A stretch of 64,000 nt of DNA, taken from positions 1,550,001-1,614,000 of the forward strand of contig WIUZ02000003.1 of NCBI GenBank assembly GCA_015956445.1. Direction: 5' to 3'. This DNA comes from Thelephora terrestris. Taxonomy: Eukaryota > Basidiomycota > Agaricomycetes > Thelephorales > Thelephoraceae. The position numbers and the translations under genes are program-made. How positions within the stretch are numbered: the stretch's first letter is position 1; every line of letters starts with the position of its first letter. Below the pieces are notes generated by a model. It saw only the letters and a program-made list of their open reading frames with translations, did no database searches and was not told the DNA's origin. Shown one piece after another: positions 28,750 through 64,000 of the stretch.

Positions 28750-29090
28750 TGCGACTCCTTCCTGTCCACCATCATCAGAAAAGGTGGCAGGGTACTTAAT
28801 TTGCGGTTGTCTGTGCTTATCCAGCGAATAAGCATGGATAATCTAATTGTATAACCTAGGTCACGAAATTATACAATCTCGACACATCTTATGTCAATTC
28901 CGTGAATTGTTTTTCGGGCGGTTTACGCAGTAGAAAATAAGGTCAATTAAAACTCAGATAAGACGTGGGTAAACTAGGGATAATGACGGAGTAATCAAGG
29001 AATAGGGAGCATGCAACCAAGAGATAATTGTTCGACAAGTTGGAATCAAGTACGGGCGGCTAATAACGGGGTGTCTAGATCTGCGGCTAA

Positions 29091-31917
29091 CTACAACAAA
29101 GCAGGGGTCGGGGATGGGGGATCTTCAAGGAGCCATGCTTCATGCTCCTCCTCTGCAACCGCTCCTGCCTCAACCTGTGCGTCGCGTGCACGAGCATCTT
29201 GGAGCCGAACGAGGGCCTCGAATATTGCCTTCCAGTTGTCGTCAGTAAGGCCAGCTACCCTCTTGAGATACTTCTCCGTTGCTGGAAGACAGTTTGCAGA
29301 CGAGAACTCTTTTGAACTTGGGACGTAATCACCACTGCGGTGCAAAATGTAACCGCGTTCAACCTGGAAGAGATTCAGTAAATATTTATTGGATTGAGAG
29401 AGAAGAGAGAGAACTCACAGCGGCGGCAGCAAGTGCGAGCGCACCAGCTGGGTGCCCGAGATCTTCAGAAGGGAGTCGGACTCGGATACCGTGTGAAGAG
29501 AAGTATGTGGCGAAAGCACGAAGAACTGGGATGGACTGAAATAGGCCTCGGCGTTTCTAAGATCTGCTGTTAATTGGGCTGGGTCCACAAGAAAGACGGG
29601 GCACTTACTTCATCATAATATCTCTCTTCACCATTGGGAAGCTCAATGGTTCCAGGCCGGAAGTATTCCCAGATGAATGGATATTGACCGGAAGCGAGGA
29701 GAGTCTCGATGTAGGCTGACCTTGCCGCCTTGGAGTCAAGCATCCGTTTGTTGTATTGCGCAGGGATGTACTCGATGGCTGCAGCAAGTCCCTCAGAACC
29801 GATCTGGTTTCGAATGACACCAAGGTCACGGTTGGTCTGTGGGGTGAAGTATCACTGGGGGCAAGGGGTCAAATACCCAGTGGGTACATGCTGAATACAT
29901 TGTGATCACAGTCAAAAAGTGATCACAATGTGCCCAGTGGGGAAAATTTGAATACATTCAAAATGTACCTGGCCATGTGAACCCAATGTGCCCAGTGGGC
30001 ACATTTTGATTGCGATCACAATGTACCCATCAATGTGATCTCAATGTGCCTGCTGTGCACATTTTAATTTCTTTCACAATGTCCCCATCAATGTGTTCTC
30101 AATGTACCCAGCTCATTACATAATAGTTTCTTTCACAATGTTGTCCACAATGTGTCCAGCATGTGGCTGAGCCACTCATTCAAACTTCTTTCACAAAGTA
30201 TCCAGTGATGTGTCTAGAATGTGTACAGCCATACACATAGTGATTTCTTTGAAAGTTCATGATGAAATTGAACAATATTGTGATTACATTGTGATTACTT
30301 CAAAAAGAACCCCCTGGGGACATTATGGACACATCACTGGATACTTTGTGAAAGAAGTTTGAATGAGTGGCTCAGCCACATGCTGGACACATTGTGGACA
30401 ACATTGTGAAAGAAACTATTATGTAATGAGCTGGGTACATTGAGAACACATTGATGGGGACATTGTGAAAGAAATTAAAATGTGCACAGCAGGCACATTG
30501 AGATCACATTGATGTGTACATTGTGATCGCAATCAAAATGTCCCCACTGGGCACATTGAGATCACATTGATGGGTACATTGTGATCGCAATCAAAATGTG
30601 CCCACTGGGCACATTGGGTTCACATGGCCAGGTACATTTTGAATGTATTCAAATTTTCCCCACTGGGCACATTGTGATCACTTTTTGACTGTGATCACAA
30701 TGTATTCAGCATGTACCCACTGGGTATTTGACCCCTTGCCCCCAGTGTATGTTAATGTGGTGATGAGCTCGATGACACGAAACACTTACCGGGTGAATGA
30801 CAGCATCGTTTGCTTGGAGGCGGTATGGGGAGCCGGGGTAGACGACAGAAAACTCTTGCTGGTATATAGGAAGCAGGGGGTTAGACCATGGTGACCTGCC
30901 GGAGAGAACGAGCTTGATGATGTGTCGAATAAAGGTGTCACGGAAGCCAACCGACAGGTTGAACGGCAGGTCCTTTTGTCCAGGAGCCTGAAATTTCCCG
31001 GTGTCGTCCTTGAGTTTCTTCACTTGAAGCGAGTAGATTGCTGGCGGGGGCGTAGCTGCTGCTTGGAAAGATTGCATGTCATCAAAAGCTTGGTGACCTT
31101 GGACGTTGTACTGGAATGGGAAAGATGATTGACCAACGAGTGGATTGATGGTATCTAGTGTGGGCGTCATAGGGTTGGGCAGGCCTGCACCCGACGCGAT
31201 TGGAAATGATTTGTATTGCCAAGACATCGGACTGACAACATGGGACGAAGATGATGGCGTCGAGTATGTTGTGTGGGATGAGAGCGTTGGGGTGGGAGTG
31301 TGTGTTGGGGTGGAGAAGAGCGTTGAGGTGGGTGACTGGTGACCAAGAAGTGGGTTCGTGTTCCCAAGGACATGAGGCCAATGGTTCACAAGGCCGGATG
31401 GCTTGTTTCGAATTGTTGGCTGGATGTTGTTGAATGAGGCGTGCGCCTTGGTACGCTTCAGGGCCCTGGGTGAGTGAAGGGAGTGAGCCATCAACGAAAG
31501 TATCGCTGTTCATGCGCACGTACCGGGGATCATAGGAGCTTAAGGGGATTCGCTTTCCACCCACAAATACGTACTCCTCTGTGTCTACCTCGGTTGGGGC
31601 CTCGGATCCAATGACCAGTCGGTCAACATCCTCAGGGCTACTATCTCTCGAAAACTAGGTCGTATTAGATATCAGCGAGAGGAATGCGAGTGGTTGAATC
31701 ATCAACTTACCAGTGGCTCCTTTGAAACAGCGGCAGCATCATCGTCCGGATGCTCGAGTGAGGCAAGACGTGCCTCGAGTAAACGAATCTGGTCGGCCTT
31801 TGACAACGCCTTGGCTTGGCGCTTCTTGGACGGAATACCTGCCTTGAGTTTAGCAGCTTCTGTCATGACAGGCGCTCCCGGGTTGGTAGTCTTGTTCTTT
31901 AGGCGAGTTCCAACCAT
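29091..31917 (-). CDS. DUF6532-like protein carried by Plavaka transposon 1
   Basis: The minus-strand gene starts at 31917 (MVGTRLKNKTTNPGAPV), with a short coiled coil (LSKADQIRLLEARLASLE). A Ser/Pro/Asn-rich middle follows, then a C-terminal domain: VGFRDTFIRHIIKLVLSG, PYRLQANDAVIHP, then after splicing TNRDLGVIRNQIGSEGL, LFQSIPVLRAFATYFFSHG, LGHPAGALALAAAAVERG and a final helix ending at 29091. The order of blocks, with a Phe-Phe motif followed by an Ala-rich ALxAxA helix, fits DUF6532, a basidiomycete domain of unknown function. A foldback element (29853-30747) lies wholly inside one intron, between a GTAAGT donor and a CACAG acceptor, so the gene may still be spliceable. Exon edges in the middle part are approximate. 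Confidence 0.65.
29853..30747. mobile_element. CACTG-ended foldback element 1 (CACTA-like MITE)
   Basis: 895 bp that is almost one perfect palindrome, with arms of roughly 430 bp. It begins CACTGGGGGCAAGGGGTC and ends with the reverse complement. TAT flanks both sides (29850-29852 and 30748-30750), a 3-bp target duplication typical of CACTA/En-Spm elements. It is non-coding and made of degenerate cacattgtgatcaca-type words. It sits in an intron of the DUF6532-like gene. Confidence 0.92.
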
Positions 31918-32401
31918 GGAAAAAAAAACGGACTAAAGAGTGGTGAGTTGGATACCAAGATGTAGGACAGATGGAATAAGGAGAGTGGGGGATACGGGGG
32001 TGGGGAATATATAAAAAATGGAATAGCGTGGTGATCTGCTTACCTGTCCCATCTTATAGTGCCACGAAAATTTGAAGCGAAGTGCTTGGCTGCAAATTGG
32101 TTGGTGGAGTTGAGCCTTCCCTTCTGTGCGCACAGACCATGCACCAGGAACGACCGCACACGTTGGCCAGTCTTGATGCCTCCCCTACAATCCAAGTGGT
32201 CACCGGTCAGGTTTTTGTCAGGAACATGGTATTTTTAAACTTTTTATAACACACTCGTTCTTTGAACTCTTCTTACCATTTCTTATGTTTGAATGCTTCA
32301 CACTCCTTATCCTTCACACCAATCATTCAAAACACACAAACGCGCGTACCATTCCCAGCGAATCGTAACAACATGGCTATATACGGTGCTATCCAAACTC
32401 A

Positions 32402-35100
32402 TCAAAAGTCGACTCTATCTACGGCAGGCCGCATGGTCATCAAACGTCCATCCCGGAGATCGTAGTGCTGGCCCCTCCTCGCAAGGACCTCCCCGAACAT
32501 GGCGTCACCATCCTCGGCACTCAGCTGAACGACGAGTTCAAGCTGATAGGAAGAGATGCCTTCGAGCGGACCGATCAGCCTCCCAGATGTCACCGAACTC
32601 TGGAACACCTGGTCCCACATCTCCATCACCGGGTGACTGCTCGGCAGCACTATCGACGTAGTCGACGAGCGACCCTCCGTCTCCCTCGTCGGACCCCTGG
32701 GTGGGATCCTGTCTTGCGAGTCTAACACTGGGGACAAGGGGTCAAATACCCGGTGGGTACATGCTGAACACATTGTGATCACAGTCAACAAGTGATCACA
32801 ATGTGCCCAGTGGGGGAAATTTGAATACATTCAAAATGTGCCTGGCCATGTAAGTCCAATGTGCCCAGTAGGCACATTTTGATTGTAATCACAATGTACC
32901 CATCAATGTGATCTCAATGTGCCCACTGGGGAAATTTTGATTGCAATCACAATGTACACATCAATGTGAACTCAATGTGCCTGCTGTGCACATTTTAATT
33001 TCTTTCACAATGTTCCCATCAATGTGTTCCCAATGTACCCAGCTCATTACATAATGGTTTCTTTCACAATGTTGTCCACAATGTGTCCAGCATGTGGCTG
33101 AGCCACTCATCCAAACTTCTTTCACAAAGTATCCAGTGATGTGTCCATAATGTCCCCAGGGGGTTCTTTTTGAAGTAATCACAATGCAATCTCAATATTG
33201 TTCAATTTCACCATGAACTTTCAAAGAAATCACTATGTGTTTGGCTGTGCACATTCTAGACACATCACTGGGTAATCTTTGAAAGAATTTTGAATGAGTG
33301 GCTCAGCCACATGCTGGACACATTGTGGACAACATTGTGAAAGAAACCATTATGTAATGAGCTGGGTACATTGGGAACACATTGATGGGAACATTGTGAA
33401 AGAAATTAAAATGTGCACAGCAGGCACATTGAGTTCACATTGATGTGTACATTGTGATTGCAATCAAAATTTCCCCAGTGGGCACATTGAGATCACATTG
33501 ATGGGTACATTGTGATTACAATCAAAATGTGCCTACTGGGCACATTGGACTCACATGGCCAGGCACATTTTGAATGTATTCAAATTTCCCCCACTGGGCA
33601 CATTGTGATCACTTGTTGACTGTGATCACAATGTGTTCAGCATGTACCCACTGGGTATTTGACCCCTTGCCCCCAGTGTAAGCTGGTGGCGAAGCTGGAC
33701 CTCCGACTCGACCTGTCGGTAGGGACGGTTGACCCGATAGCGGAACTTTCGTTCCCGATCTCGACCAGACTGGTCACCATCTGACTCAACTGGACGCGGG
33801 TATGGGTTAGCCGAAGGAGCCATGCGATGAGCAACACGGCGTCGCGAGCGTTTACAACGCTGCCCTGTTGTCACCGGACGTACCTCATTGGCCCTCGGAA
33901 CATCTTCGGCCCGGTCAACCTCCATGACCTCATCCTCGATCTTGACCAGCTGACTGATTGGCTGCAATGGGCAGCGCCGACAGTTCTCCTTGTCGGACTC
34001 GGCCAACGTGGAAGCCGGAGCCGGAGTCGGGCCGGGAACCACGTTCTCTACTGGAGGTGTCGCATAGGACGACGGGTTAGGCGATGGGAGTACCACCTCG
34101 TCGGCGTACTCCAGCTCGAACGGAACGTCGGCAGTCCCCTGACCAACCAATTTCGGACCCTCCCTGCAGTTGCAGGTCTTATCCTGCAAGGACGCGACCT
34201 GCGCTGTCAGCACGGCCACCACATCTTCGAGCTGTTCCGTCTAGGAAAAGTGTCAGCTTTCTTCATTTCGTCTTTCGAGATGAAAAAAGCTACCTTTTCA
34301 TCCCTCCTGGCCAAGGCCCCCTTGATGTTGTTGTCCCTGACCTTCAACCCGGCGACCAACTCTTGATGGTTGGCAACCATCGCCTCCAACGCCTCGTTTG
34401 TCCCTTGCTGGAAAGCGGCCAAAGTCTCCTTCATCAGAAGACCCTCCGCTGACAGACGAAGGACGTCGGCTTTCGCCTCCTTCACCTCGCGCTCCAAACG
34501 TTCAACCTAGGCAGTTTGGTTAGTCGAGAGTCATACTCGGATATTCAAACAGAGAACCTACCCGGCTCTCCCCCTCCCGAACGAGCGACCACAATAACGA
34601 GGTGGCGGCAGTGGCATGGCGGACGGCTCGAGGAACGGTTGCCCCGTGCTCCAACAAGTCCTGATCATAGATCCCTCGTTGCAAGGTGTACCAGAGCTCC
34701 TTTTTGATCGGATGCTCCAACTCCCCGAACCTACCCCTCATCTGGAAGACCACCTTCTCGGCGATCATTGTACGGACCCAGAGCTCATCATCCCAGGTCA
34801 ACCCCATCAAATGAGGGATCGTCTCCCTGAGACGTTCGGCATCCACCTGCTGGACGACCTCCAAGATCTACAAACCGATTAGCTCAACGTCTAAAGCCGA
34901 TGCTGTACGACCTGTACCTAGAGGAAGGTGTTAGTGCAAACACACGAAGCTCTAGACCTCCCCCATACCTGGTCATCCGTGGTATAGGGAGTTCCTGCCG
35001 CGGTGGCATAGGTCTTGCGGGCGGCGACTCGGCGGTCGATACGGGAGATGGTGGATATGCCATTGGCGACCTTGTAGGTATGGTTGTTGGGGAAAGACAT
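32402..35100 (-). CDS. Coiled-coil protein of unknown function inside Plavaka transposon 1, interrupted by a foldback
   Basis: Minus-strand exons begin at 35100 (MSFPNNHTYKVANGIST), then a domain with RLRETIPHLMGLTWDDELW, VFQMRGRFGELEHPIKKEL and RAVRHATAATSLLWSLV, a coiled coil (VERLEREVKEAKADVLRL; about 34500-34290), a leucine-zipper-like helix (LEDVVAVLTAQVASL), and an acidic-to-basic disordered tail (CKRSRRRVAHRM). A foldback element at 32726-33678 cuts this tail; a further open stretch continues to 32402. I do not recognise the family. The DNA-binding-like basic tail and coiled coil are suggestive only. With the foldback in coding sequence, the C-terminus is probably lost. Confidence 0.5.
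32726..33678. mobile_element. CACTG-ended foldback element 2 (CACTA-like MITE)
   Basis: 953 bp of near-perfect palindrome, the same family as 29853-30747. It is flanked by TAA on both sides (32723-32725 and 33679-33681). It is inserted in coding sequence of the coiled-coil gene. Confidence 0.92.
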
Positions 35101-36396
35101 GTTTTGGTGAGATGATGGGGAAGTTGCTGGTGTTGCTGATCAAGGATGGCTCCAAGAAGACGTCCTTCTTATAGCCTAGATCGGTGATCCTTCACGTGAC
35201 CTACCTCGACGAACCTCATTGGTCCGGGTCACATCAACTTCCGCCCCTGTACCATCATCGTTGGCTTACTATATCAAGCTGACACCTCGGCCCGCGGGAC
35301 GGCCTTGGAAGAACTTCGTTCCGGAACGCCTAGAACGCGCGCGCACTAAAAATAGGTCTCAAGACCCTGATGACCCCTTTATGACATCACGAACCCCTTT
35401 TTACGACCCCTCATGACTTTACAATTACGACCAACCCTGGACCCTGATCACACACGTGGACAGTCACATCACAGTCTCCTAACCGGAGGAAGGAATCGCC
35501 GTTATTCGGAAGGAGTGCCTTAGACTCCTTTTGTTTAGCCCAGCGCATGTGGAGTAGCCGTTAGCGTGAAACGCCGGCGAATCTGTAATCCCTCATGTCC
35601 CATGAGTCTAGGCCCGACCTCCTCATGTGCGGACGTACGTTGAGGTTGCCACTATTCCGTGATGCTGTTACCGCCTACAGACAACAAGGGATGTTTGCAT
35701 GGCTCTACTCCCGAATCCGCTGGTACAACTATGTAAAGGGAGATTGCCACCTGACCCTTGGGTGTGATCCCCAGGTACGAACTTTCATGACCCCATGCCC
35801 CTCTTTCTTTTAGGACTAGTGTTATCTTTACCCCTATGTTTCATGCAGACATTCGTTATCTTTTATGCAATCCTTCACACGCTAGTAAGGCCCTTTGTCC
35901 TTTATTCTCCCACGCGTCACCTTTGTTCGCTTCCCTTACTTAGCGTTCTCACACTCCTTATCTCCCTTTGTTCTGGACTTGATAAGGGTATATTAGGGTA
36001 TTGACGTCATGGCCACTCCCTTAGTATAAGTAGCAACTGTGGCTGTATTGTAGTACCTTAGTTTTGTTACCTCAGGAAATCCTCTGCCCTTCTCAGCCCA
36101 GTTGCAGTTAAGGACAAGTCAGAGTTTCTTGTTTGATCCAAGACATCCCCATCTGCTCTCCCTCCCGCTCTGCGCGTCAACTGCGCCTCGTAACTATAGA
36201 ACCCCAGCGTTCATATTAGAACACCTCGAGCGTCCAGTCGATCACCTGGTGGAGTCATCAATCCTGTTGTAGGGATAAACCCTTGTTTGTTAAACCGAAC
36301 GAAGTACGGTTTAGGTTGGGTTTCTCTTTAGGATTTCGACCTGACTTGTAGTGACCTCGGACAACCTACCGGAAGAATAGGGACGTGATCGTTCCC
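35101..36396. other. Long non-coding stretch inside Plavaka transposon 1
   Basis: No convincing gene was found. A TATA-like tataagta near 36025 and pyrimidine-rich DNA after it look like a promoter pointing right, toward the transposase. The general look recalls an LTR, but no matching end repeats or target duplication were found. Confidence 0.35.
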
Positions 36397-36855
36397 TCAC
36401 AAGCTAGTTGGACTAGTGAGTACTCTGCGGAGTCGGCTCAGTGCACTGGTAGTTGTTGGGGTAGAGTGGCCCTGACAGTTTTGATGAGTACGTGGAGAGC
36501 CACTCACCATGAGACACGAGCAACGCCTCGTGTTCCAATCACCTGCACAACTGGCATTGGAAACTCCAATGGAATTGAGGTCAAATTGGTTGGCGTCAAA
36601 CAGGTCGTGCTGGTCGGCATCGAGAGATCCGATGTTGCTGGCGATAGGAGAGCTGATGCCATTGATGTGGTTGAAGCCGAAAAGCTCAATGGAGTTGGAA
36701 TTGGTGTGGGTGATGTTGGGAAAGTGAGCGTGGCCGTTGTCGGGGAACCCAGCGTGACTGTTGTTGGAAAACCCGTGGCCGTTGTCGGAGAACCTAGCAT
36801 GGCCGTTGTCAGGTGAGGCAACATCGTGGGCACCAAGAGCGACTCCAGCCATCAT
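36397..36855 (-). CDS. Small ORF with Asn-Gly-His-Ala-type repeats, divergent from the transposase
   Basis: A 152-codon open frame starts at 36855, 88 bases from the transposase frame on the other strand. Its first part repeats a block like PDNGHAHF every 8-9 residues (about 36725-36812 in DNA), which is a 24-27 bp minisatellite. The rest is Asn/Ser-rich low-complexity sequence. It could be an upstream exon of the minus-strand genes or a chance frame over the minisatellite. Confidence 0.3.
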   Translation of the reverse strand: MMAGVALGAHDVASPDNGHARFSDNGHGFSNNSHAGFPDNGHAHFPNITHTNSNSIELFGFNHINGISSPIASNIGSLDADQHDLFDANQFDLNSIGVSNASCAGDWNTRRCSCLMVSGSPRTHQNCQGHSTPTTTSALSRLRRVLTSPTSL

Positions 36856-36942
36856 GGCAGGGAAGACGGAAGACCAGAGGCAATGGTGAAAAGAGGGGAC
36901 AGGATGGAAGACAGGAGGCCGTGCGCGTGAGTTGGGATCAGA

Positions 36943-39900
36943 GTGAATGAGGCGGAGAAAAAAATCACGCCAAGTCCCACAAAAGTCCCACGTCCCACAC
37001 TGGTGGCATCACTTTCACGGCTCTCCCCTCACCACCTCTCTTTGACCTTGCGCACAGTTTGCCTCAATGGCGGCTGCCCCTTTCTCTTTTTTATCTGTGG
37101 CGAATGCGGCAAGGTCTGTAGGTCTGGCCGCGGGTTAACTCAACACAGGTCGGTCCATCGCTCACTTCCTCGGCTCGGAAATCACCACCATTTTCATCGC
37201 GAATACCACCCACTACTCAACGGTCAGTAAATTCCACCCTCACCTCCTCTGATCTATTCTAACTCTATGTATCTGAGAAAGGGACCCCCTGTGACTATCG
37301 TGGCCGTTTTCTCCCACCAGGCGCACCGCCATCGCCGCCGCCACCGAAGCCAAAAGATGACTGGTCTCCCTTTTCCTCACGAGCAGGATTTGAACTGGCC
37401 AACATCCTTTACCTCAGAGCACACCTCTCCCAGTCCCTCATCAACGAAATCCTTGAGCTCTGGAGTGCCACACTCGTTCCCCACCGCGACCTTCCCCCTA
37501 TCATCGACCATTGCGATCTCCACGCCCAGATCGATGCAATCAAATTAGGCAACATTCCATGGAGGTCTTACACCGCGCAGTACCAGTGGCTCCGTCCTGA
37601 CGACGGCCCAGCACCGGAGTGGATGCGAACCAAATACCAAATCTGGTACCGCGATCCCAGACAGGTCATCCACCATCTCCTCGGAAACCCTGAGTTCACT
37701 TCGGGTATCGACTACGTCCCACACAAAGACTTCAAAGATGGAGAACGGCAGTACCACGACTTCATGAGTGGTGACTGGTCCTGGGAACAATGCGTAAGAC
37801 GGCCACCATTCAACATTGAAGCTCGCTGACTGTTATCTACAGGATATCATTGCAGAAGACCCCACGACTCATGGCGCCATGTTTGTTCCCATCATTCTTG
37901 GCAGTGACAAGACGACCGTCTCCGTCGCAACTGGCCAGCAAGTTTATCACCCAGTTTATCTCTCAGTTGGCAACGTACACAACAGCCTTCGACGAGCGCA
38001 TAAGGCGGCTCTTGTCCTCATCGGCTTCCTCCCAATTCCCAAAGGTATTGTATTTGCCTCCAATTGTTTCACCCCAAACTGACACGACCCAAGGTTCCCA
38101 CCAGGACGGAAAGAGTGACGTCTTCCGTGACTTCCGTCGACGTCTTTTCCACGGGTGTCTTGTGGCGATGAACGGCTCTGTCAAGGCGTATATGACCACC
38201 TGGGATATTGTTCGCTGCGCCGACGATCACTTCCGCCGCGTGATCTATGGCATCGGTCCGTACATCGCCGATTATCCTGAGCAGTCGACCGCTGCAGGGA
38301 CTGTATATGGATGGTGCGTGACGTTGGTGCTCCTTTTATAATTCATTTTTATATATTGACCCATGTCCTCAGGTGTGATGCAGACCCCACGGACCTCGAT
38401 GGATCACTTGCCGAGCTTCGCACGCTCAGCCAGTTCCTAACGCTGCTTGAAACCGAGGATGAAGACTCCCTATGGTTTGGCCACAGCATTGTGCCTGACT
38501 TCCTGGTTCGTCCCGCGCTGCAGCAGATCAGCAGCCGACTAACCATCAACTCCAGCCATTCACCACTAAATTTCCGCGCGCAGATATATATGAGCTTCTC
38601 ACCCCAGATCTCCTCCATCAGGCCATCAAAGGAACGTTTAAAGACCACCTTGTTACGTGGGTTGAAGATTACCTCAAGTTGACGTACGGCGCATCTCGGG
38701 GGTTAGAGATCCTTGACGAGATTGATCAAAGGTTTGATCTCTCATTCACCACCCACTCACTGCATCTAATGTCTTTCTCAGAATTGCTCTGGTCCCCCTA
38801 TTCCCCGGCCTTCGCAGATTCAAGCAAGGGCGAAACTTCCAACAGTGGACCGGAAATGATTCCAAAGCTTTCATGAAGGTGTTCGTCACCTCGCTGGAAG
38901 GTTTCGTTGCTGTCGACATCACCAAGGCTCTCACAGCCTTCCTGGAGTTCTGCTACATTGCGCGCCTCGACACCGTCACTGAAACCTCACTTCATGCCCT
39001 CGACGATGCCCTCAGGAAGTTTCACCACTACCGCAAGATCTTTCAGGAGAGTGGTGTACGTCCGACTGGATTTTCCCTCCCTCGCCAACACGCCCTCACA
39101 CATTATCGTCATCACATTGAGAAATTTGGTGCCTTGAACGGCTTATCCTCTTCTATCACGGAGTCGAAGCATATCGCCGCCGTCAAGATACCTTGGCGCC
39201 AATCAAGTTGTTATGAGGCTCTCAACCAAATGCTTACCATCAACAGCCGGAACGACAAACTCGCTGCCGCACACACTGACTTCTCCACACGTGGCATGTT
39301 GAATGGCACCTGTCTCGGTGAGGCGCTCAAGCAGCTTTGCAGCTCCCTCGAGGATGACACCAGTGTGGAGGACGACGACGATCTGGACGGCGACGACGGC
39401 CAAGACCTTGATGCCGACGAGGATGAGGAACCAACAGGTCCAGTTGATGGGCCAGCTACATCGAGTGATGTATCTCTCGCCCACAAACGAGGTAGGTTTT
39501 GTTTCTCTTATGTCTTGAACTGTTTCTCATGACAGCACAGCACGCGGGTATCCCCTCGCTTCATTCCAGGCGCTCGGCCGACATATAAAGCAGGAAAATC
39601 TTGAAGCCCTTGTCCGGGTTTTCCTGTTCTATCAGGAAAACCCTGCCTTCGTTGGAACCCCTCCCCTCGCTACCTGTCCAACCCTCGATTCCGTCGAAGG
39701 CATATCTGTCTTCCATTCCGCCAAGGTCACCTTCTGTGCCCCAAGCAACAATTCCGGCACGGGTGGGTTGTATCGTGAAACCATCCGTTCCACCTCGAGG
39801 TGGCTCACTAGTGGTATCATGGCTCCCCGTCGGGATTGCATCGTCATTGCCACCGGGTCAGATATAGCTGGGGTAAGGGGTCTGGATGTTGCGAGGGTCC

Positions 39901-40214
39901 ATATGTTCTTTTCGTTCGTGTTCAGGGATGAGCTGTTTGAGTGTGCCCTTGTTCATGAGTTCTGCAAGACCTTCACTGACCCGGACCCGGACAACGGCCT
40001 GTGGGTTTTCGAACCGGACTACAGTGCAGATGGATCCAGGATCATGTCTGTCGTACACATTGACTCCATCGTTCGCGCCGCGCATCTGTTGCCTGTTTTC
40101 AAGGACAGCACTCCCATTCCGAGGGAGATCAACTTCACCCATACGCTCGATATATTCAGGGCCTTCTACCTTAACAAGTATATAGATTACCACGCTTTTG
40201 AAACTATGTGCTAG
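36943..40214 (+). CDS. Plavaka-family transposase (transposon 1)
   Basis: A multi-exon gene. It has an N-terminal C2H2 zinc finger (CGECGKVCRSGRGLTQH), then DDWSPFSSRAGFELANIL, WYRDPRQVIHHLLGNPEF and FMSGDWSWEQ. The core is HGAMFVPIILGSDKTTVS, then IGPYIADYPEQ, DLLHQAIKGTFKDHLV, FQQWTGNDSKAFMKVF, FLEFCYIARLDTVTE and SSSITESKHIAAVKIP. The Asp of GSDKT, the Asp of IADYPE and the Glu of ITESKH are candidate DDE catalytic residues. The C-terminus has DPDNGLWVFEPDYS and LDIFRAFYLNKYIDYHAFE. Plavaka transposases belong to the CMC (CACTA/Mirage/Chapaev) superfamily and perform cut-and-paste transposition. Introns are short with clean borders; the frame appears intact, so the element may be active. 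The exact start is uncertain. Confidence 0.88.
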
Positions 40215-40623
40215 GCTTTTGTTGTTTGTACCCCATTGACCCCGAATCTTATTTTCTGGTTGCCGATCATTTTATTTCTTCATTATCGTGCACGTTTTCG
40301 AGTGAATTTGAGTGAACTCAACCACCGGCAATTATCATAAAATAAGTATATAAAAATCTGCACAAGTTCGAGTAATCAAAATAAGTGAAAATAAACGCGA
40401 ACAACTAGCTGCCTCTTTTACTGATGATCCCTCAATGACCCCGTTGTTGTCCCCGTAAACTTTGATGCCTGGGAGTGAATAATTTTGGAGAATAGTGCGG
40501 ACGAGGAATTCCATGCCGACGGCTTCGGCCCAACCGATGTCTCTTCCAGAGGCTTTCCAGCCTGGGAGGAGTCTCCATGCACGCCATTTGTCGCCGATCG
40601 TGATGCCAATGCCAACAGATGAG

Positions 40624-40773
40624 CATCAGCAAAGGTGACACCAGCTTATTTGGCTTATTCACGCTTATTTGATCTTATTTATGACAGGTCCCGCCACCTG
40701 GATCAAATAATCACGAAATAATCGAAATAAGGTGAGATAATCGCTGAATAACACGATGCCACCTTTTCTGATG
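40624..40773. mobile_element. 150-bp Plavaka MITE in the retrotransposon RT region
   Basis: It starts CATCAGCAAAGGTGACA and ends as the reverse complement of CATCAGAAAAGGTGGCA, nearly the same as the left end of the 11.65 kb element. AG flanks both ends (40622-40623 and 40774-40775). The inside is packed with cttattt words. It is a non-autonomous derivative of the same transposon family, inserted 197 bases from the big element. Confidence 0.88.
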
Positions 40774-50478: not shown

Positions 50479-50486
50479 TATATATA
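50479..50486 (-). promoter_or_regulatory. TATA box of the solo LTR
   Basis: The sequence tatatata is oriented for minus-strand transcription, with the TTC/GAA repeats lying directly upstream on that strand. Confidence 0.5.
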
Positions 50487-50504
50487 CTATTTTACACAAG
50501 AATG

Positions 50505-50517
50505 TTCTAGAACATTC
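50505..50517. promoter_or_regulatory. Heat-shock-element-like site (TTCnnGAAnnTTC)
   Basis: TTCTAGAACATTC is a perfect three-unit heat shock element, about 19 bases upstream of the LTR TATA box. Confidence 0.6.
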
Positions 50518-50617
50518 CAGCACCTTCCACAGTATTCCGTAAGATTCCGCCATGTTCCATTAGTTTCCGTCTTGTTCTTTGTGTGACAAATCATCACATT
50601 TGTGACATTCCGTCACC

Positions 50618-50630
50618 TTCTAGAATGTTC
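50618..50630. promoter_or_regulatory. Heat-shock-element-like site (TTCnnGAAnnTTC)
   Basis: TTCTAGAATGTTC is a second perfect three-unit site. Between and after the two sites, ttcc words recur about every 10 bases to 50690. Confidence 0.6.
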
Positions 50631-52651: not shown

Positions 52652-53766
52652 CATCAGCAAAACCGATCGGGCCTCTGTGCGCCCTGTGACCTCCTGTGAC
52701 GCTGTGACGACCAATCGCCACAGATACATCCCCCCCCTCCACAGCAGCACAGCACCTGCCCACAGCATCACAGGAACTTGCTTGGGTGTTTCCTTGCTGT
52801 TACTCTGTGATGCTCAAGTGTGCAAGATTGGTTGGGATTTGATTATTAAATAAATTTATTGCTCGTTAATTACAGTGCTAATACAACTGACACAAGAAGG
52901 AGATGCGCTGCGCAGGCGTCATGTCCATAGGAAAGTAGATATTCAATGAAGGGCTAAAGGTGTTGAATGTGAGCGTTAGCGCCGAATGGATCGCCCATAA
53001 CTGGAGAGGAATGGGTGCTCGGTCGAAGGGTGGTCAGTAAGAAAGGCCCTCCACAGTCAATGGCCCAATAGTGTTGCCGTCGCACCTCAGGTCCAGGGAA
53101 CCGTCGCTGATCGGTGATGTCGACGTGCTCCGTCAGCGGGTGTCGACACCGATGATCGCTTGGATCCCCACACACGTGCACTGGCTTCAATCTTGTTGGC
53201 TGTTTTGAAGGTTTCTTGATGGTTGGTCTTGTTGGGGGGTCGCTATTGAGCAGGGGTGGTGACTCCAACGAGGGGCGCCAGGGATGTCCTTGACCAACCA
53301 ATGCTAGTGTGAAAGTGGCAGGCCCTCACGCTGAACATTGGAATGGACTCCCTGGGAGAAATAAGGTTGTGATGAGAGTGGAGGCCGTGTAAGAGGGGGG
53401 AGTCACATACCTGGCAACTACTTGTCGCGACTCGTGGAAGGGGGCACGGAGGTATTATATGAGAGTCCCTGACAGAGTTCTTGTAATTGGAACCAGGGGT
53501 GCACGCATTGCTGGATTGGGCCAGGTGTCCGTGACACATGCTATTGGTGGGGTAGCGAGGGATTGAGCAAGAATACTGGGAACGAAAAGAGTGTTCCATC
53601 TTCAAAGTCGAAATTCTCACGTACCGGGAATTTCCGAATGGCCGCCGCACAGTACCCCAGCACCCCAGCTGCCCAGCGTATTGCCACAGGAGGACAGCGC
53701 GACAGACGATCGGAGGAAATTGAGCGCCCGTCCCAGCGACACAGCAGCCGATCGGTTTTGCTGATG
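52652..53766. mobile_element. Non-autonomous Plavaka-type element, 1.1 kb
   Basis: The terminal inverted repeats are CATCAGCAAAACCGATCGG at the left and its near reverse complement at the right (ending ctgatg at 53766). CA flanks both ends (52650-52651 and 53767-53768). The subterminal DNA has many ctgtgac/cacagc words and a poly-C stretch, also found at the right end of the 6.9 kb element at 54045-60975. No transposase sequence is present. The open frames inside (such as 53301-52954 on the minus strand) have no recognised similarity. Confidence 0.88.
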
Positions 53767-54044
53767 CAGAGCGTCCATCTATTCCCCTGCTTTAGTGGTA
53801 GTTGGAATTCGGACAACGTGACGGTACTGGAAAAATGTGACGCGTTCTTTGTAAATCGACTGCAGAGTTGACGAACGTACCTCGTGATGTCTAATTACAG
53901 TACAAATAATAGTAAGTGATTTCGAGAAGGAGACGCCATCTGGGGGCGTGGTCGATTTTTATATCTTTGTTTTCTAAAATCTACCAATTCCCAGGTCCTG
54001 GGTAAAATTCCGTAACCAGAAATCCTTGAAAAATCCAGTATTTA
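53767..54044. other. Host DNA between two Plavaka-type elements
   Basis: 278 bases without recognisable features. Confidence 0.4.
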
Positions 54045-54308
54045 CATCAGCAAAACCGATCGCCGGCTGTGGCGCTGGGCGTGAATTTTCGACTTCTGAT
54101 CGGTTCCCGAAAATGCTGTGGGCCTGTGTTCCTGGGACAACCTCTGGGGCGTTGTGGTGCTGGGGCGCTGTGCGGGGATGCTACCTCGTACTGTGGTCCT
54201 GTAGATACTTAGCTATTTTTAACTTAAAATCAGACATGTAAAAAGACATGAAACGACGTTTATTGTGTGATTTTCTCGCGGTCTACAGGTTAAACAATGG
54301 TCTGGTAA

Positions 54309-57300
54309 CTACGGACGAGCGCTTCGTAGGTACTGGAAGATGTCTTTATCGAAGTACGCATTCAAGAAAAATTCTTTGCTCCACTCCATACTGTTGCTAT
54401 TTGTAAGTCGACGATCTGCCTCCGCACCGAACCGAGGGACGAGTTGAACAGGCATGCGGCAGTGGGAGAGGGGGATGATGTCACCAACACGCGTTTTGTT
54501 GGCGCGAAGTGCGCGTTTGACGATGTATAGGCCGGTGGTGGGATCGGGGATGGCAGCACGGGTGGGAGGGGTAGGGGTGGCTTGAGGGACGATATCGAAT
54601 CGTTGGGCGTACACCATGTATGACGGCGCTTCGGGAGGCTCCCCATCCCAGATTGGGTAAAGAATTAGTCGGATCTGAGCGAGATCGTACCCTGGGAAGT
54701 AGTGTTAGCCGCGGTCGTGAGGAGTAAGTGTTGTCCGAAAAACTTACCAGGCAGTCCAACGTCTGGAGAAAGGGCAGGATCTGTGCGGTCATGAACAAAA
54801 AGTGCAGTGTCGTACCGTCCGAAAGACCACGAGTCGCAGGGAGGAATTGCATTGAGGCGTCGAGGGTCTGTGACCGATTTTTCGTCTGACGAGTACGTTT
54901 GCATTCGAAGGGAGTACCACACCAGGACGTCGGTGAAAGGGAGTTGGGTGTTCGGGTGGGTTCCTCGCCGCCCGCCGATGTAATGAAATGAGGGGGTTTC
55001 AAGATACTGAGAAAAGAAGTCGAGGAGGGCCGGGCGTAGATCTGGCAGCTTGTAGATTTCCGCAAGAGAGTCGATTGAGATGCGGGAGATATCCGGCTTT
55101 CGGTTGACGTTGAAAGCAGCCCATGGCGTGGAGAAGGTGCGCAATGGCTGAGGAATGCCGGTGGTCCCGTCTAATGCAACGCGCTTGACCAGGGCGTCGG
55201 CAGTCCTGAACAGGTCGACCTGTTTGCGAGATGGGCCACAGGTGGTGATGATGGTATCGAGCTCTGCGATCCAACTGACATTCAATTCGTCATCCATTTC
55301 CTCGTCGTCACCACCAACGGCTGAGCCATAGAGAATTGACTCCAAGTCGCCTCCAGCCTCGTGGATTGCCGTTGCGAGGTCAAAGAGACGCCCCTTCTCG
55401 TCGCGATCGAGATGTCGGCAGATGTGAGGGCCATACTGGCCGTTATTCGTGTTCTCAGAGGGAACCTTGATGACATCGATATGGGCACGCTCCGTTGCGT
55501 CGGCAGACCACTGGATGGGGGCCCCAGACCAAGAGATACTTGCGGCAACGCTGTGGAAGAATTCAAGTTTTGGGATGAAGAAGTTGTTCAGCGGGTTTTT
55601 TGCTTTCCCGACCCTCGCACCGGCATCGAGAATAGCCTGTTTGGTCTTGTGGAAGGTGGTCAGCGCGTTGATGATTTCTGCAATGGTATGGCTGTCGATG
55701 GATCGAGATTGAGCCAGGTAACGGAAGTCAGAGAGGGATCTGATGCAGAGGGCAAAATCCTTCGGAACGGCGTCGGCAATGATGGAAACGATATAGCGTT
55801 GGACGTTTCGGTGATCCCTGCCGGTAACCTGCTTGAGAGAAGAGATCCCGAGTTTGAAGTGACGAAAGCCAACGCAAGGCTGAAGCAGAGAGAAACGGAG
55901 ATCGATCTCTCCATTCCCGACAGCGCGGATGCACCACTTGGCATCGTGATCCCAAAATTGTTTGTGCCAGTGGTGGAGCGGTTCAGGAGTGAGGAATTCA
56001 CCTGGCTCGGTGATCGTACCATCCGGCAGAGTCCAGTCACGCCAGAAGGGCAGGTGAACACCGTTCAGCCTGAAGCGTTGCTGGACTTCCTTAGCGTACG
56101 CCCCGAGGTCCCAAGGGTCGATATACTGCGAGACAACGTGGTTTTGAGCAAGTGTGACACGTCCCAAGCGAGTCGGGTGCCGGAAATGGTCGCCAAATGT
56201 TTTGTGTGACGCGAGCGTGAGGTGAGAAGTTTTCCCCCCGACGCCAGCAAGGACTGCCGCTTCTGGCGTATCAACGATATAGGCGACGAGCGGGGTGAAA
56301 AAGCAGCGAATGCGGCCAAGGGAATCAGCCATAAAGGCACCATTCGCGGCCACCTGCTTCAACGGTGCGGAGACGATATCGAGGCAATGATGGACGAGCC
56401 GGTTTTCCATGACGCCGTGGAGAGACTTCTTAAGGCCGATGAATTTGGGACAGGGGAGTAAAGCGATGAGAGGGAGAGCGTGATAAGTTGATTTCATGCG
56501 GACGTCCATCGGGAGGTTTGCAAGCGTGAGGAGGAGAGGGTGCGCAACCCGATCGCCGGTCGCAATCGATATGTTTGTTTTATCGGAAGAGAGGGTGATA
56601 CCGAGGAGGGTTCCACCTGGAGGGAGAGTCGACTAGGAAGTAGCGTGAGGCCGCGTGGATTAACGGAGGCTGAGAAACTTACCTGGGCAGACCATGCGCC
56701 ATCGCTGGTCATCCAATCGCCGTAGAGGCGGTTCTGTCGGTCGGGATCCTGATAGACTTTGCGAGCAGTGAACGCCCACTTCCCTTCGAAAATCGGATTC
56801 CGAAGGAGAGCTTGGATGATTTCGAGTGGATCCCGGTAGAAGAGGATAACCGGCTTCGCTGTTTCGTACCCAGCAAGAGAAACTGACTGCATCTTCCATT
56901 CGGGCGCCTTAGGAAGGTCCTCCATGCGGCTGCGGAGCGTTTTCGCAGTTGTGAAGGAAAGGGATAACTGTTGGACCTTGATGTTTCATTAGTAGGGGGC
57001 GGTTTTTGGTAATTTGTACACGTACAATAGGGAGTGAGAGGAAATCATCGGTGGCTCTCATCGAGAGGCCGGAGCGCGACAACCACGAGGCAAGACCCCA
57101 TTCCCCCTTGGAGGAGAATGGGTAGTAAATATTGTCCCTCCTCTTCTCTGCGTTGTGATCGGATTTAAAGACATCGACGAACCCCGCGCCGGATCCAAAA
57201 ACGTGAGGGACATTGGGATGGACGTCTTCGTGATACACCCTATCTGGACCATTGATGGCGTCGATTTCGAGCATGGGTTCGTCGCTATTGGAAGTGTCAT

Positions 57301-57532
57301 CGTCGTGAGAGGTGTGATTGTCGCTATTGGAGGTGTCGTCGTTGTGAGAGGTGTGATTGGATCTGTCGTGGGGGGAGCGCTGAGCGGGAGGGGAGATGGA
57401 CTCAAGGAAATCGCGCCAAGTCGCACATGAAGACCGCGGGTGATTCATATGGCGTAGTACAGAAGTGTCGGTTTCGAACCATTTCTTGCATGAAGGGCAT
57501 TGGCCGTTGAGGGAGCGAGGGACGCTGGCCAT
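54309..57532 (-). CDS. Plavaka-family transposase (transposon 2)
   Basis: A multi-exon minus-strand gene. The first exon has a zinc-finger-like CPSCKKWFETDTSVLRHMNH and a Ser/Asp/His-repeat spacer. Then come ILFYRDPLEIIQALLRNP, LYGDWMTSDGAWSAQ, then ITLSSDKTNISIATGD, LVAYIVDTPEAAVL, FWDHDAKWCIRAVG, SWSGAPIQWSADATERAH and a C-terminal exon with KTRVGDIIPLSHCRMPVQL and FFLNAYFDKDIFQYL. The Asp of SSDKT, the Asp of IVDTPE and the Glu of ATERAH align with the candidate DDE residues of transposon 1. The proteins are related but strongly diverged, so the two transposons are different lineages. A start at 57562 is possible but 57532 sits directly before the zinc finger. Confidence 0.85.
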
Positions 57533-57662
57533 CGGGCGCAGGTCTTGAGCTGAAAGCAGCAAGCTGAAGCTGAAGTTTCCGAGCTGAAGCGCTGACGTGG
57601 CAGATCACGATCTGGAAGTGCGGTCAGTTACAGCACAAGACGCAACTTGTCCTTCCTCCTCA

Positions 57663-60507
57663 ATGTCACCCTCACCGTCACTGAACCCATCTCTCCTTAT
57701 TGAGCAACTGCGCCTCCTTGAGACTCAAATACCAGTAAGTCTCAATCCTTTTAAAATCAAATAATTATACTGATGCAAAAACAGCCCCCAGGACTTTTGA
57801 TTCCGTCTTTCAGCACGAATGAGCAGGTCTTGACTGCAAACCAAATTCTCACCAGCGTAAGACAACTTCGTGAAAGGGTGGCTGCCGAGTCCATGGAGGC
57901 CAGCGAAAAACTTTCTCAAGCACTTTTGGACATTGTACTGTACGCGGAACGGGTGGATAGCGCAGGCCGCATACTCTCTCTAGCAGATTCTTGCATCGGC
58001 CAAATCAGGTTCCGAATGCGTGCACGCGGCATCCCCATCCACGCTCCATCCACGCCTTCCAACGCCATCCTGCCTTCCAACACCATCATGCCTCCTGACT
58101 CCATCATGCCTCCTGACTCCATCGTGCCTTCTGACTCCATCATGCCTTCTGGTCCTATCACGGAGCCCGACAACGGACCTGCGTTTCACGGTAAGTCATT
58201 CGCTTGACATAACGAACGACAAATTTTTGACAAATCATCAGATGGGCCTGTCGAATCAGCATGAAGTATCACAATATCAATTGTAAAGGGCGAAGTCGTG
58301 TTTACCTCATGTTGAGATATCTGTATATAAAGCTGTTCTCCCCTCGCATGAACCCTAGGTCTCTCCTGCCTGGGCACCCGTTAATCTGGCGCAACCAAAC
58401 GTCTCTGGCAACCCCATGCCTCCCCCACCGGAGGGGTTCATGGAGTACCTCGCTATGTTATCTCAGAGCGGCGCTCTTCCTTTCCCTGTACCCCAGCACC
58501 TCTCCCAGCCTGCCACGTCTATTCCTACTACGCCACCTACTCCTACGCCGCCAGCTACCGAAGCTCGTTTATTTAATCGAGCCGGCCGCGGAACAGGAGG
58601 CGCGCTGTCAGAAAAGCAGAAGGTCTCGAAGCAGATCACGGCTCCCGCTTCAAAACGCAAGTCCACCCTCGACTCCGACGCCGAGATTGAACTCTCACCA
58701 AGTTTGGAGGCCGCTGAGAGCGCCAACCTGAAGCAAAAAAAGCGCGTCAAAACGGGAAAGGTAAGTAAATAGTTCAAGATCTCCAGATCGCGTCTGAACA
58801 AAACTCCAACTCAGGCGACTACTCGGGCCAAACCCAAACCCAAAGCACTCCCGAAGTTGTCGAACAGAACAGCCTATCCAACGCCCGCTCTCACTGATCC
58901 TGAACCAATTGTAAGCCCTGTACGTACGTCCCTCCCTCTTCTTCAACTTTACTAAAAAATCTCCATAGATTTCGACGCCTGTCCCCCCAACGTCCATACG
59001 CCCCACGCCGCGATCAACAAAGCCGATCATCAAGGTCAAGGTCCAGTCGCCCGAACCTCAAGACATCGACATCGACGACAATGACGTCTTCGCCTTGGAG
59101 GTCCAGGAGGACGAAAGCGTCCACAGCGGTGAGGATTCTGACCCAGACGCCGATGTTCCCGTCCCAGCAAACAACGGTAATCTATCTATGGCCCTCCAGA
59201 TGACAAACACCCAGGTTCGTGCATTGTATGGCCCGCCGCAATCATTCTCACCCCCATTTTTAGTCCGCTGTGCCCCCGGTCAACCTTGTTCAGGCATTTC
59301 TTAGCCACTTCGGCGTAGCGACCATCCCCCAGGTCCAGCCCCCCCCTGCCGCACAACCCACGGAAGATGCTTTGTCAGCAAAGAACATCAAGTCCTACCC
59401 GCTTGTATGGTGCAAAGCTCTGAACATGTTGAAGGATATCATCCGAGCCTGGATTCTCCTCACCGACCCCTTTCCCGGTCCCGCTGATGTGCAGGTCATG
59501 ATCAACGAGTGTTTCCACGAAGTCTGCATGTCCCTAGTCAATGACGGCCTTAGCCTCGAGTCCGGTACGCCCGTGCAATGGTGACGTGCTTGCTCACTCA
59601 CTCACATCTCATCCAACAGGTACCAGGTGGACGGTTGATACATCCACTATTGTAAGTACACGTCCTGTCTAAATACAAGCAAGCTAACCCACAAGTCGCT
59701 GCCGCCTCAGCTCACGACAGACATCTCAACTTCACGGAGTGAACTTAAGAAGCTCGCCAAGATTCTCGTCGGTGTGGACCCTGGCCTCTTTCCGCTACTC
59801 TCTAAGGATCATAACGCTCTTGCTGATCGCTCTGCCCCCGAGATCCGTACAATTGCCGCGAAAATGCTGAAGAATAAGAAGAACACACCGGCCACGTCCC
59901 AGCCTCTCTACGACTACAGCCACGTTCGCGCCTCTGTCACGAGTCGCCTCGCACAGTTCGCTTACCTGAACAATCCCCCAACGACCGATGTAAGTGACAT
60001 TCACATGTCGCACTGTCTATTGACTAACTGAACCTTTTACAGGGCGACCTCTTCGCTAGCCCCATCCTCGAAAGGCTCTGCAAGAGCTTCTACGAGGAGG
60101 ACAGGTGGCAGCGATCTCTCAGGTGTCATGCCAAGGGAGACAATGAATGGAAGGCGTCCGTCACCGTCACTATGATTTCACTTGCCGCGACCGCCGTAAG
60201 TGCAATCCAATCTGAGGTCAGCACATTCTAACCTCACCCACAGCATCGATGTGCTCTCGATGAATGGAGAACCGGAAACTTTGTTCAGAAGATATTTGAA
60301 GGCATCAAGTACACAAAGATCTACACTGAAATTCAAGACTACGTAGTTGACTGCGTTGAAAACGACCCTCGCCGCGAGTCCGCGCTTGATCGCTTCAATT
60401 GCTGGGCAACGGAAAGGTATGGTTGGCCTCCCTCCTTCCGAGTCGATAGACGTTGGCTAATTGCATTCACCAGTGTGTTCGTTCAAGATTTCCCCGGCGC
60501 TCAGTGA
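57663..60507 (+). CDS. DUF6532 protein carried by Plavaka transposon 2
   Basis: About ten short exons. Exon 1 (57663-57733) gives MSPSPSLNPSLLIEQLRL; the next has a helical region and a Pro-Asp-Ser repeat (PPDSIMPPDSIVPSD). A long disordered, basic part follows (KRKSTLDSDAEIELS, KQKKRVKTGK, RAKPKPKALPK), then an acidic patch. The C-terminal domain reads MLKDIIRAWILLTDPFPGP, DVQVMINECFHEVCMSL, SELKKLAKILVGVDPGLFP, RLAQFAYLNNPP, SPILERLCKSFYEEDR and SLAATAHRCALDEWRTG, the signature end of DUF6532. Function is unknown; DUF6532 proteins are numerous in mushroom genomes. Its position inside a bounded transposon next to the transposase suggests an accessory protein, perhaps DNA binding through the basic region (inference). 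Confidence 0.82.
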
Positions 60508-60673
60508 ACACGGACATCTATCCACCAGCTGCGCTTTTTACCTCATCCCCCCCTCTCGTCGTTTAATTCCATAGCCTTCATATCACAATCATTACATAGA
60601 CCGCTCGTTTCCATACTCTACACACTATTTCTCAATACAGATAATGTTTACCCATGAGCACCCAAACCTGAAC

Positions 60674-60815
60674 TGACATATCTCGAAAACTGACATATCT
60701 CACAAAAACCGACATATCTCACAAAAACCGACATATCTCACAAAACTAACATATCTCTAAAAGCTGACATATCCCTAAAAAACCGACATATCTCCCAAAA
60801 AACGACATATCGCCC
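60674..60815 (+). repeat. Subterminal tandem repeats of Plavaka transposon 2
   Basis: Eight units of 17-19 bases share the core gacatatctc followed by an A-rich spacer. They lie 160-300 bases inside the right end. Subterminal arrays like this are known transposase-binding sites in CACTA elements; that role is inferred here. Confidence 0.85.
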
Positions 60816-60975
60816 AGAGCCACAGAGCCACAGAGCCACAGCGGACTAGCCTGGGCACGTTTTAGCCGAGCTGCTGTGCCGCTGTGACCATCCTGTGGAG
60901 GGGGGGGATGTCCCTGGGACGATCGGTCGTCACAGCACCCCAGCGGCTCACAGCGACCGATCGGTTTTGCTGATG

Positions 60976-61160
60976 TAGAACTTGTTGCCGAAAAGATCAC
61001 CGATCGAGTTTTTCCTGATGAAGCACCAACCATTATTCAATATTCAATTATCAACTATGCGACGATGAGACCACAAGTTATCTCCCCCTTTAAAAACCCG
61101 GTTAAGGGGCAGAAACCACCTTCACCGCTCCCGTGATTTCTCCACTTCGTTCCAGCAGCC
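60976..61160. other. Flank between transposon 2 and kinase copy 3
   Basis: Similarity to the other kinase copies starts at about 61095 (ggggca), so the duplicated unit of copy 3 has a shorter upstream part. Confidence 0.5.
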
Positions 61161-64000
61161 ATGGTAGACATAGACCTTCGCGAAAGTGAGCTACAACCCT
61201 ACGTGACTGCGATTGATGGTAGCTGATAAGGTGATCCAGTCGATTTCACCTCGCTTGGTCCTGAGACCTTGCTCAGGCTGGGAGAAGACTTTGTGCGCGC
61301 ATTGCCGTCCGTCGCAAGGGATCCCCCAAGACCGAAACTGGAGGAAGGCTGGGTGGACCTGATATCCAAAACGATCGAGAGAGATGGAACATCCCAAACA
61401 AGTTTGTCCCCACAGGATGCGACGGCGTTGGCGGACACATTTCGCAAGGTATATCCCCCATTCAGACCTTCTGTCGGCCTCTGAACGTTCATGTTTGCGG
61501 CCAGGCCTTACTGCGCCTCCACCTCAGCGATTCTTCCATGCGAGACCTGTGGATCAGACTCTATGTCCACGCCCTCCTCCGTGGATCGCACATCTTCACT
61601 GACCTACGATTCTTGGAGCCGTCTACTGGATCGCCAATTTCTGAGCCTTCTGGATTCGTAGACGTTTGGAGGGGGAAATATCACGGAAACCCTGTGTGTA
61701 TCAAGTTTATTCGAACACGCAATAACGCCAATCTGCGGAGAATGAAAAAAGTACACGAACCACTTTTCCAACCGGAATCAAACTCACCGCCCATCCTGCC
61801 AGATCTTTTACCAAGAAGGTCAAGGGTGCAAGAAATTTTCCCACCCAAATATACTTCCCGTCGTTCAAGTTTCGCAGGATCTATTCCCGTTTTGTATCAT
61901 GAGTCCATGGATGCCAGGAGGAAACATCATGCAGTACACGCAGAAGAATCCGAGTGCAAATCGGCTAATGCTGGTATGTGTCCATCTAGGATGGCGAGGA
62001 CACCTACTGACCCTGTACACAATAGCTCGCGGATGCCTGCCACGGCCTCTCCCATCTTCATGGGTTAAACATTCCGCACGGTTGTATTTCTCCGGTAGGC
62101 GAAGTGAAACAGTTTGTTCGCCTGCACATATATTAATGCGCGGTACATCAAGAATAACATCCTAATCACCCGAGACGGTCGAGCCTGCCTCGGGGACTTT
62201 GGTATTGTGGAGGGTTTCGGTAAACTGCCGCATACCAGGTTCAAGCTGGGAACTGCACGTTACATGGCCGTGGAACGGCTTGACCTTACCGGTAGCCCTG
62301 CCTCGAAAGAGAGTGACGTTTACTCCCTTGCGATGACGGCCTTCACTGTGCGTTCCTCCCCTGTTGTTCAGCAGACAGAAATTTGACGAATGTTCTATAT
62401 CAGGTACTGACAGGGATCACTCCGTATCCATATCTTAAGTTTGATGGCTATATTAATCTCATGCTAAGCGTTAAATCTGGTGACCGGCCCTCCCGTCCAA
62501 CGAACGTGGATGGTCTTCGATCAATGCCAGATGACGTTTGGGGTATGATTACGACCTGCTGGAGTGAGGACCCAAAGCAGCGATTGGAAGTCTCCGCTGT
62601 GTGTGGGGTATTTTCGGCATCGAGTCTCCTGGAGGTCCAGAAAGTCAAGACAGGTAATTTAATTCCTCAAACCTCTGATAACCCCGCCACGGCTGAACGT
62701 TCCCAGACATCAGAACAGGAGGAAGACAGCGCAGCAGCAAAAAACTCCTTTCGCGAATCCCCGCTTTCGTTCGGTCTCTACTGGTTTCGGAACCAAAGAT
62801 AGAGAGGCTCGTCAACGATGTGGCTCAGGTAGTCTCCTTCGCACCCGCTCTTTCCTACGGGGAGGATAATTTAAGCTGCAGCGTCTAGAGAATCAAACCA
62901 TGTCGGATAAGGAACGACAGAAGGTTCTCAACGAGCTCTGTGAAATGTGCAGGCGACACTGCGTTATACCAGACACTATGAATATTCCGGAACGTCCGAA
63001 TGATGCCACTGAAGTCAAACATATGGGGGGATTTGCTAACGTATCCAGGAGTACATATGGAGGGTACCAGGTGGCCGTCAAGGCTGTCAACGTGCGCACG
63101 CAGGACTTGGAACGCCTCCGCAGCGTGAGTGTTCTACTACTCTTGCTAACCCATCCGTATGCCTGAACGCATCATAGGAATTTTGCAAAGAGGTGGTGGC
63201 TTGGAAGCATGTCCGGCATCCGAACGTCTTGCCGCTGCTTGGAGTGACGTTCAGCGAAGACCACTTTTCCATCGTCTCCGAGTGGATGCACAATGGAAAC
63301 ATCATTGAGTTCGTTCGAAGATATCCTGACATAAATCGAACTGTACTTGTACGTGTCCTTTTTTGATCCCGGTAAGTGGCTAACTACTCCCCTCCGGTAG
63401 TTGGCAGATGTTGCGAGCGGCTTGAAGTATATGCATGACCTTCCGATCGTCCACGGAGATATCAAGGGGGTAAACAGCTCTCTTACAGTCTAATTTCTGC
63501 ACTATCTCACTGCTTTCGAAGGATAAAATCCTGATCAACAAGGACTGGCGAGCCTGTATTGCCGATTTTAGCCTTACGAGGATCACTGGAAGCCACCTCG
63601 CTCTTGGAGTAACTCCGACCACCACGGCCTCGGATGTTATGCTGATGCCGTTATCGTGTGCTCCTGGCGGGACCGAGAAGTGCTTGAGTCCTGAGTCTCT
63701 GGACCCAGATCGGTCTGGAATACCCGAAACAGAAGGGGACAGGCCCACAAGACAGTCCGATTGCTACGCCCTCGGGATGGTCATCTACGAAGTAAGTACT
63801 CGTATTGGTGGACTCGCGTTTGCTAACAGTCAAGTTGGGGTCCTTCAGGTTTTGTCTGGACTCAAGCCTTATCACGAAATCCAAGGGAAGAGTGCAGTCC
63901 TCGAGGGGGGCAGGCCAGAGAAACCGGAGGGGGCAGCGCGCCTCGGATTCAACGACGAGTTGTGGACGATCGTTGAACAGTGCTGGCGGGAAAGTCGGGA
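61161..64000 (+). CDS. Pseudokinase-kinase tandem protein (TKL-like), copy 3, runs off window
   Basis: It starts MVDIDLRESELQPYVTAID, which in copies 1 and 2 is cut short by a small deletion, so this copy shows the probable ancestral first exon. A helical leader follows (ALPSVARDPPRPKLEEGW and DLISKTIERDGTSQTS). Domain 1 has NPVCIKFIRTRN, then HGLNIPHGC (Cys at 62083-62085) and LGDFG. Domain 2 has VAVKAVNV, EFCKEVVAWKHVRHPNVLPL, IVHGDIKG, IADFSLTRITG, and continues past 64000. Two oddities: the acceptor before the linker exon reads cgg where copies 1 and 2 have cag (near 62776), and the segment matching MSPELLDP reads LSPESLDP. The two halves may therefore be unlinked or decaying in this copy. 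Confidence 0.65.

Follow-up and report, generated by a model that had tools for sequence, protein, structure and literature searches.

The window analysed here, a stretch of 64,000 nucleotides from Thelephora terrestris, contains a PlavakaB-type transposon (element 2) in which a Plavaka transposase gene is accompanied, on the opposite strand, by a gene of DUF6532, to our knowledge a Pfam family without known function. At the sequence level, the element is well established together with the genes that it contains; it looks complete, may be autonomous, and carries three genes. Together with a second Plavaka element of the same window (element 1), the pairing of Plavaka with DUF6532 is clear in one element and probably present in a second one, this being a sample of two elements in one window to which no statistic is attached. 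The name Plavaka was reportedly introduced by a 2014 paper. The features of both elements and of their smaller relatives are collected in Table 1.

Table 1. Features of the two Plavaka elements and of related insertions (positions of the window).
Feature	Position	Strand	Basis or remark
Element 2, PlavakaB-type transposon, 6,931 bp	54045..60975	.	Terminal inverted repeats; TA duplication at 54043-54044 and 60976-60977
Element 2, left end, perfect terminal inverted repeat of 18 bp, CATCAGCAAAACCGATCG	54045..54062	+	Sequence match
Element 2, right terminal inverted repeat, CATCAGCAAAACCGATCG	60958..60975	-	18/18 identical to left
Element 2, subterminal repeats by the right end, 7 copies of GACATATC, spacing mostly 19 bp	60667..60835	.	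Repeat search
Element 2, Plavaka transposase, 1,019 aa, 4 exons (57532-57026, 56967-56683, 56632-54748, 54691-54309)	54309..57532	-	No internal stop
Element 2, small gene, 166 aa, acidic, pI 4.7, exons 57663-57734, 57785-58190, 58242-58264, ends with TGA	57663..58264	+	Open reading frame only
Element 2, DUF6532 gene, 571 aa encoded in 8 exons, N-terminus polar, DUF6532 domain spanning residues 286-514	58416..60507	+	PF20149 match
Non-autonomous relative of element 2, 1,115 bp, same 18-bp termini, CA duplication	52652..53766	opposite orientation	18-mer matches
Element 1, Plavaka element, AT duplication, inside a retroelement	28773..40426	.	End pair 15/20
Plavaka transposase of element 1, frame of 877 aa up to the stop, gene start provisional	37275..40217	+	PF18759
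Partner gene of element 1, 550 aa encoded in 6 exons, open throughout, probable divergent DUF6532	29091..31917	-	PF20149, below cut-off
MITE, 150 bp, element-1-like termini, AG duplication	40624..40773	.	Ends and frame reopening

The inverted-repeat ends and the TA duplication that an earlier sequence-only reading had proposed for element 2 are both confirmed, with identical termini and TA at the two flanks. Searched throughout the window with up to three mismatches, the terminal 18-mer gives four matches, all four of them exact, compared to 0.07 on average over 100 shuffled sequences. Within the terminal 250 bp of the element, GCTGTG and CTGTGG each occur six times and GATATGT five times, the shuffle 95% limit being three, and clusters of CTGTG are also seen at the ends of the 1,115-bp relative. 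The left end of this relative finds its best alignment at the right end of element 2, and vice versa, and because of this crosswise alignment it is read as an oppositely oriented non-autonomous form. Since joining the flanks of an emptied site yields crossing frames of at most 57 aa for element 2 and of only 101 aa for the 1,115-bp copy, the boundaries of both are drawn solely from their ends and duplications.

Gene models were built manually, guided by the reading frames and by GT-AG splice sites. As the sequence-only reading had it, element 2 encodes a Plavaka transposase on its minus strand, which matches PF18759 in Pfam over the full profile (positions 1-325 of 325, E 1e-79), ends with a C-terminal DUF6830 domain (PF20722, E 5.2e-33), and shows an N-terminal C2H2-like match below the cut-off. 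On the other strand, that reading had seen one DUF6532 gene at 57663-60507 and thereby only two genes in the whole element; the models give three, as this interval merges two genes, namely the small gene and the DUF6532 gene proper. The family assignment itself stands, the 571-aa protein matching PF20149 with E 1.8e-18 and 67.6 bits, above the gathering cut-off of 24. In the same line, the 130-base gap said to lie between the two divergent genes does exist (57533-57662), but it separates the transposase gene from the small gene, the DUF6532 gene starting further downstream. The small protein has no convincing Pfam family, and TATATAAA is located between the small gene and the DUF6532 gene, upstream of the DUF6532 start. 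A single gene made of the two plus-strand frames was also considered, through 20 combinations with introns restricted to 40-600 nt, and appears less likely, as fusing them needs an intron of 235-592 nt compared to 48-59 nt for the introns of the plus-strand models; alternative splicing between the two is nevertheless possible.

Element 1 interrupts, together with the 150-bp MITE, a retroelement at 26544-43962. Its left end resembles the end at 40773 (18/20) better than its own right end (15/20), but without any duplication, and the end at 40773 is read as the terminus of the separate MITE with a duplication of its own. When element 1 and the MITE are both removed, with one duplication copy kept for each, a frame of 807 aa spans the two joins, while with element 1 alone removed the crossing frames measure 556 and 190 aa; as a control, among 1,000 single joins made at random, one attained 800 aa, and the highest value was 805. 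No Pfam family is named for the joined retroelement frame, of which a 431-aa part was scanned, and a neighbouring frame gives a tyrosine-recombinase match below the cut-off (E 0.0017, 18.6 bits vs 27.1). The repeats at 26544-26692 and 26963-27111 are 100% identical and those at 26812-26969 and 43805-43962 are 99.4% identical, an arrangement resembling the split direct repeats known from Ngaro-type elements. If so, element 1, with the partner gene aboard, would have inserted into a young retroelement. Besides its two genes, element 1 holds a further minus-strand gene-like region at about 32.3-35.1 kb, delimited by eye, and two related fold-back elements (29850-30749 and 32722-33682), one of which sits in an intron of the partner gene; with this extra content, element 1 is more than a simple gene pair.

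The ends and duplications of these elements fit PlavakaB, which is defined in the main text of Kojima 2025 (PMC12730594) by 5'-CATCA..TGATG-3' termini and duplications of 2-3 bp: the PF18759 domain is present in both transposases, the CATCA..TGATG termini are found, and the duplications at the four delimited elements (TA, CA, AT, AG) all measure 2 bp. What distinguishes them from the elements described in that text is the extra gene, a TET/JBP dioxygenase gene in some PlavakaB families and a clear or probable DUF6532 gene here; the only word beginning with 'DUF' in the main text of PMC12730594 is the name of an author among the references. The additional gene inside a DNA transposon is a feature shared with the TET/JBP-carrying fungal transposons of the same source, whereas no TET/JBP family is found among the Pfam-scanned proteins of both elements. 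Across the window, nine end pairs match at 13/20 or more and four of them have a 2-bp duplication, including a CATCAG end pair at 10843-18182 (13/20) that may be due to chance.

The transposases of the two elements are diverged, with 27% identity across 501 columns, and the one of element 1, which matches PF18759 over profile positions 4-325 of 325 (E 2.7e-113), shows no DUF6830 match in Pfam. The C(2)C motif, given in the main text of PMC12730594 as common to the transposases of the CMCT clade, is not seen between the catalytic residues, assigned by eye, of the element 2 transposase (D385 to E645) or of the joined element 1 transposase; H-rich stretches occur in the same interval, the place of the H(3-4)H motif of the clade, to which they may or may not correspond. 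With C(2)C missing from both, the activity of the two transposases is not assured.

The subterminal repeats of plant CACTA elements are bound by a second protein that the element itself encodes, the known second proteins being little alike; TNPA recognises these repeats, and TNPA and TNPD are both required, according to the main text of PMC2613891. Element 2 resembles En/Spm, as described there, by its transposase accompanied by a second protein, by its repeat-rich subterminal regions and by deletion derivatives that keep the ends. It differs from En/Spm by its termini and by a second protein that has its own gene, located on the strand opposite to the transposase, the comparison being one of layout. 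Subterminal motif repeats are in excess in element 2 and not in element 1, at the ends of which the element 2 subterminal motifs are absent and its own motifs are not in excess over shuffles. From the analogy with TnpA and from the subterminal repeats of element 2, we infer that DUF6532 could play an accessory role in transposition, a hypothesis with moderate support. More precisely, the DUF6532 protein would serve element 2 as TnpA serves En/Spm: it may bind the repeat-rich ends of the element, or the chromatin over them, and, once bound, may help the transposase to pair or choose these ends, or else counter silencing. The perfect termini with their duplication, the three open multi-exon frames, and the second, diverged element with an open and probably related gene argue for such a helper, as do the clear DUF6532 match in element 2 and the lack of any DUF6532 match at E 0.01 in the six-frame scans of 40427-52651 and 60976-64000. 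Against it stand the missing direct similarity between the two partner proteins, the score of the element 1 partner below the Pfam cut-off, the subterminal motifs not shared by element 1, and Pfam results for both partner proteins that include no DNA-binding family; no solved relative was found in the PDB either. As a whole, the reading of element 2 as a PlavakaB transposon that is complete and possibly autonomous, encoding a transposase, a DUF6532 helper acting on ends or chromatin, and a small acidic protein, is tentatively favoured, with a confidence somewhat short of even. A wider proposal, according to which DUF6532 would be the standard second protein of PlavakaB, the basidiomycete family would be mostly transposon-borne, and a new accessory type unrelated to TnpA would exist, with a third small protein in some elements, appears possible, if rather doubtful.

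The sequence-only reading had placed a Plavaka transposase and a DUF6532-like gene on opposite strands of element 1, and had proposed to judge the idea by a profile search of both partner genes: the plus-strand transposase of element 1 is a full-length Plavaka match, the element 2 gene at 58416-60507 is clear, and the minus-strand gene of element 1 is borderline and only probably a DUF6532 member, with 19.7 bits (E 8.7e-4) for the whole protein and 22.2 bits (E 1.4e-4) for the domain alone, both under the 24-bit gathering cut-off. These scores would be compatible with a gene foreign to DUF6532, the pairing then existing in one element only, and the two partner proteins indeed lack direct similarity by BLASTP against each other (best E 2.4) and do not exceed shuffles in hhalign (score 14.5; 60 shuffles, median 12.9, maximum 19.7). 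However, with E values of up to 10 allowed, DUF6532 is the sole Pfam family that comes up, whether the full protein or the domain alone is scanned, and 0/7 shuffled copies match it, so that we regard this exclusion from the family as quite improbable. The claim of two bounded elements with the same pair consequently holds for the location of both partner genes within bounded Plavaka elements, and for their identity in one clear and one probable case.

Another explanation, rather unlikely in our opinion, is that DUF6532 is a passenger, a gene of a fungal family captured by some Plavaka elements without any role in their movement. Fungal transposons do carry varied extra genes, such as TET/JBP in some PlavakaB families (main text of PMC12730594), and the further gene-like region of element 1, as well as the strong divergence of the two partner proteins, would agree with such a capture; against it, an open multi-exon partner gene is kept in both of the two transposase-bearing Plavaka elements found here. 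One may also consider that DUF6532 acts on host chromatin and not on the element ends, either as a regulator or to counter silencing, with a purpose comparable to that of transposon-borne TET/JBP. The N-termini of the partner proteins are polar (22% and 25% of hydrophobic residues vs 32% in the rest) and contain short basic patches, and TET/JBP dioxygenase carriers are already included in PlavakaB families in the main text of PMC12730594. Nevertheless, Pfam results for the DUF6532 proteins of both elements include no chromatin-related family, and this regulator appears unlikely. A sequence search of the PDB returned unrelated molecules, with best E values of 0.66 for the element 2 DUF6532 protein, 1.1 for the element 1 partner and 1.3 for the small protein.

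If DUF6532 is a transposon helper as favoured here, its genes in mushroom genomes would belong to the transposon fraction, and one would have a testable transposition system of two or three proteins, for which the adjoining 52652-53766 copy would be a ready non-autonomous substrate. The second nearby element with its probable distant relative makes such a role in transposon movement testable.

Regarding the literature, the main text of PMC8955403 lists PF18758 (KDZ), PF18759 (Plavaka) and PF20149 in one sentence, as further domains present in two Ganoderma species, unlinked, and it is the sole paper found for DUF6532 and its identifiers in open-access main texts. The earlier statement that no description of the pairing is known is in line with this search, and an earlier description in that 2014 paper or in supplements is possible.

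Further relatives were looked for in several ways. In a viral contig collection, no relative was found with the largest exon of the element 2 transposase, the terminal 18-mer, a two-row transposase alignment or the DUF6532 protein, and the same alignment matched no relative in a genome contig collection, which is not a fungal genome set. In the intervals 40427-52651 and 60976-64000, all six frames were scanned with Pfam and gave no DUF6532 or Plavaka match at E 0.01; elsewhere in the window, a selection of single open frames or spliced models was scanned. As a positive control, six-frame scanning recovered the DUF6532 gene of element 2 (E 3.3e-6) and missed the element 1 partner, and distant members of the family could therefore be overlooked. 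Protein kinases were reported by the six-frame scans, and a protein kinase region is present in three copies of about 85% identity (22148-25853, 44085-47779 and 61106-64000). Finally, the window contains a direct duplication, 735-4744 and 11019-14984, with 91.6% identity and AAA ATPase frames in the first copy.
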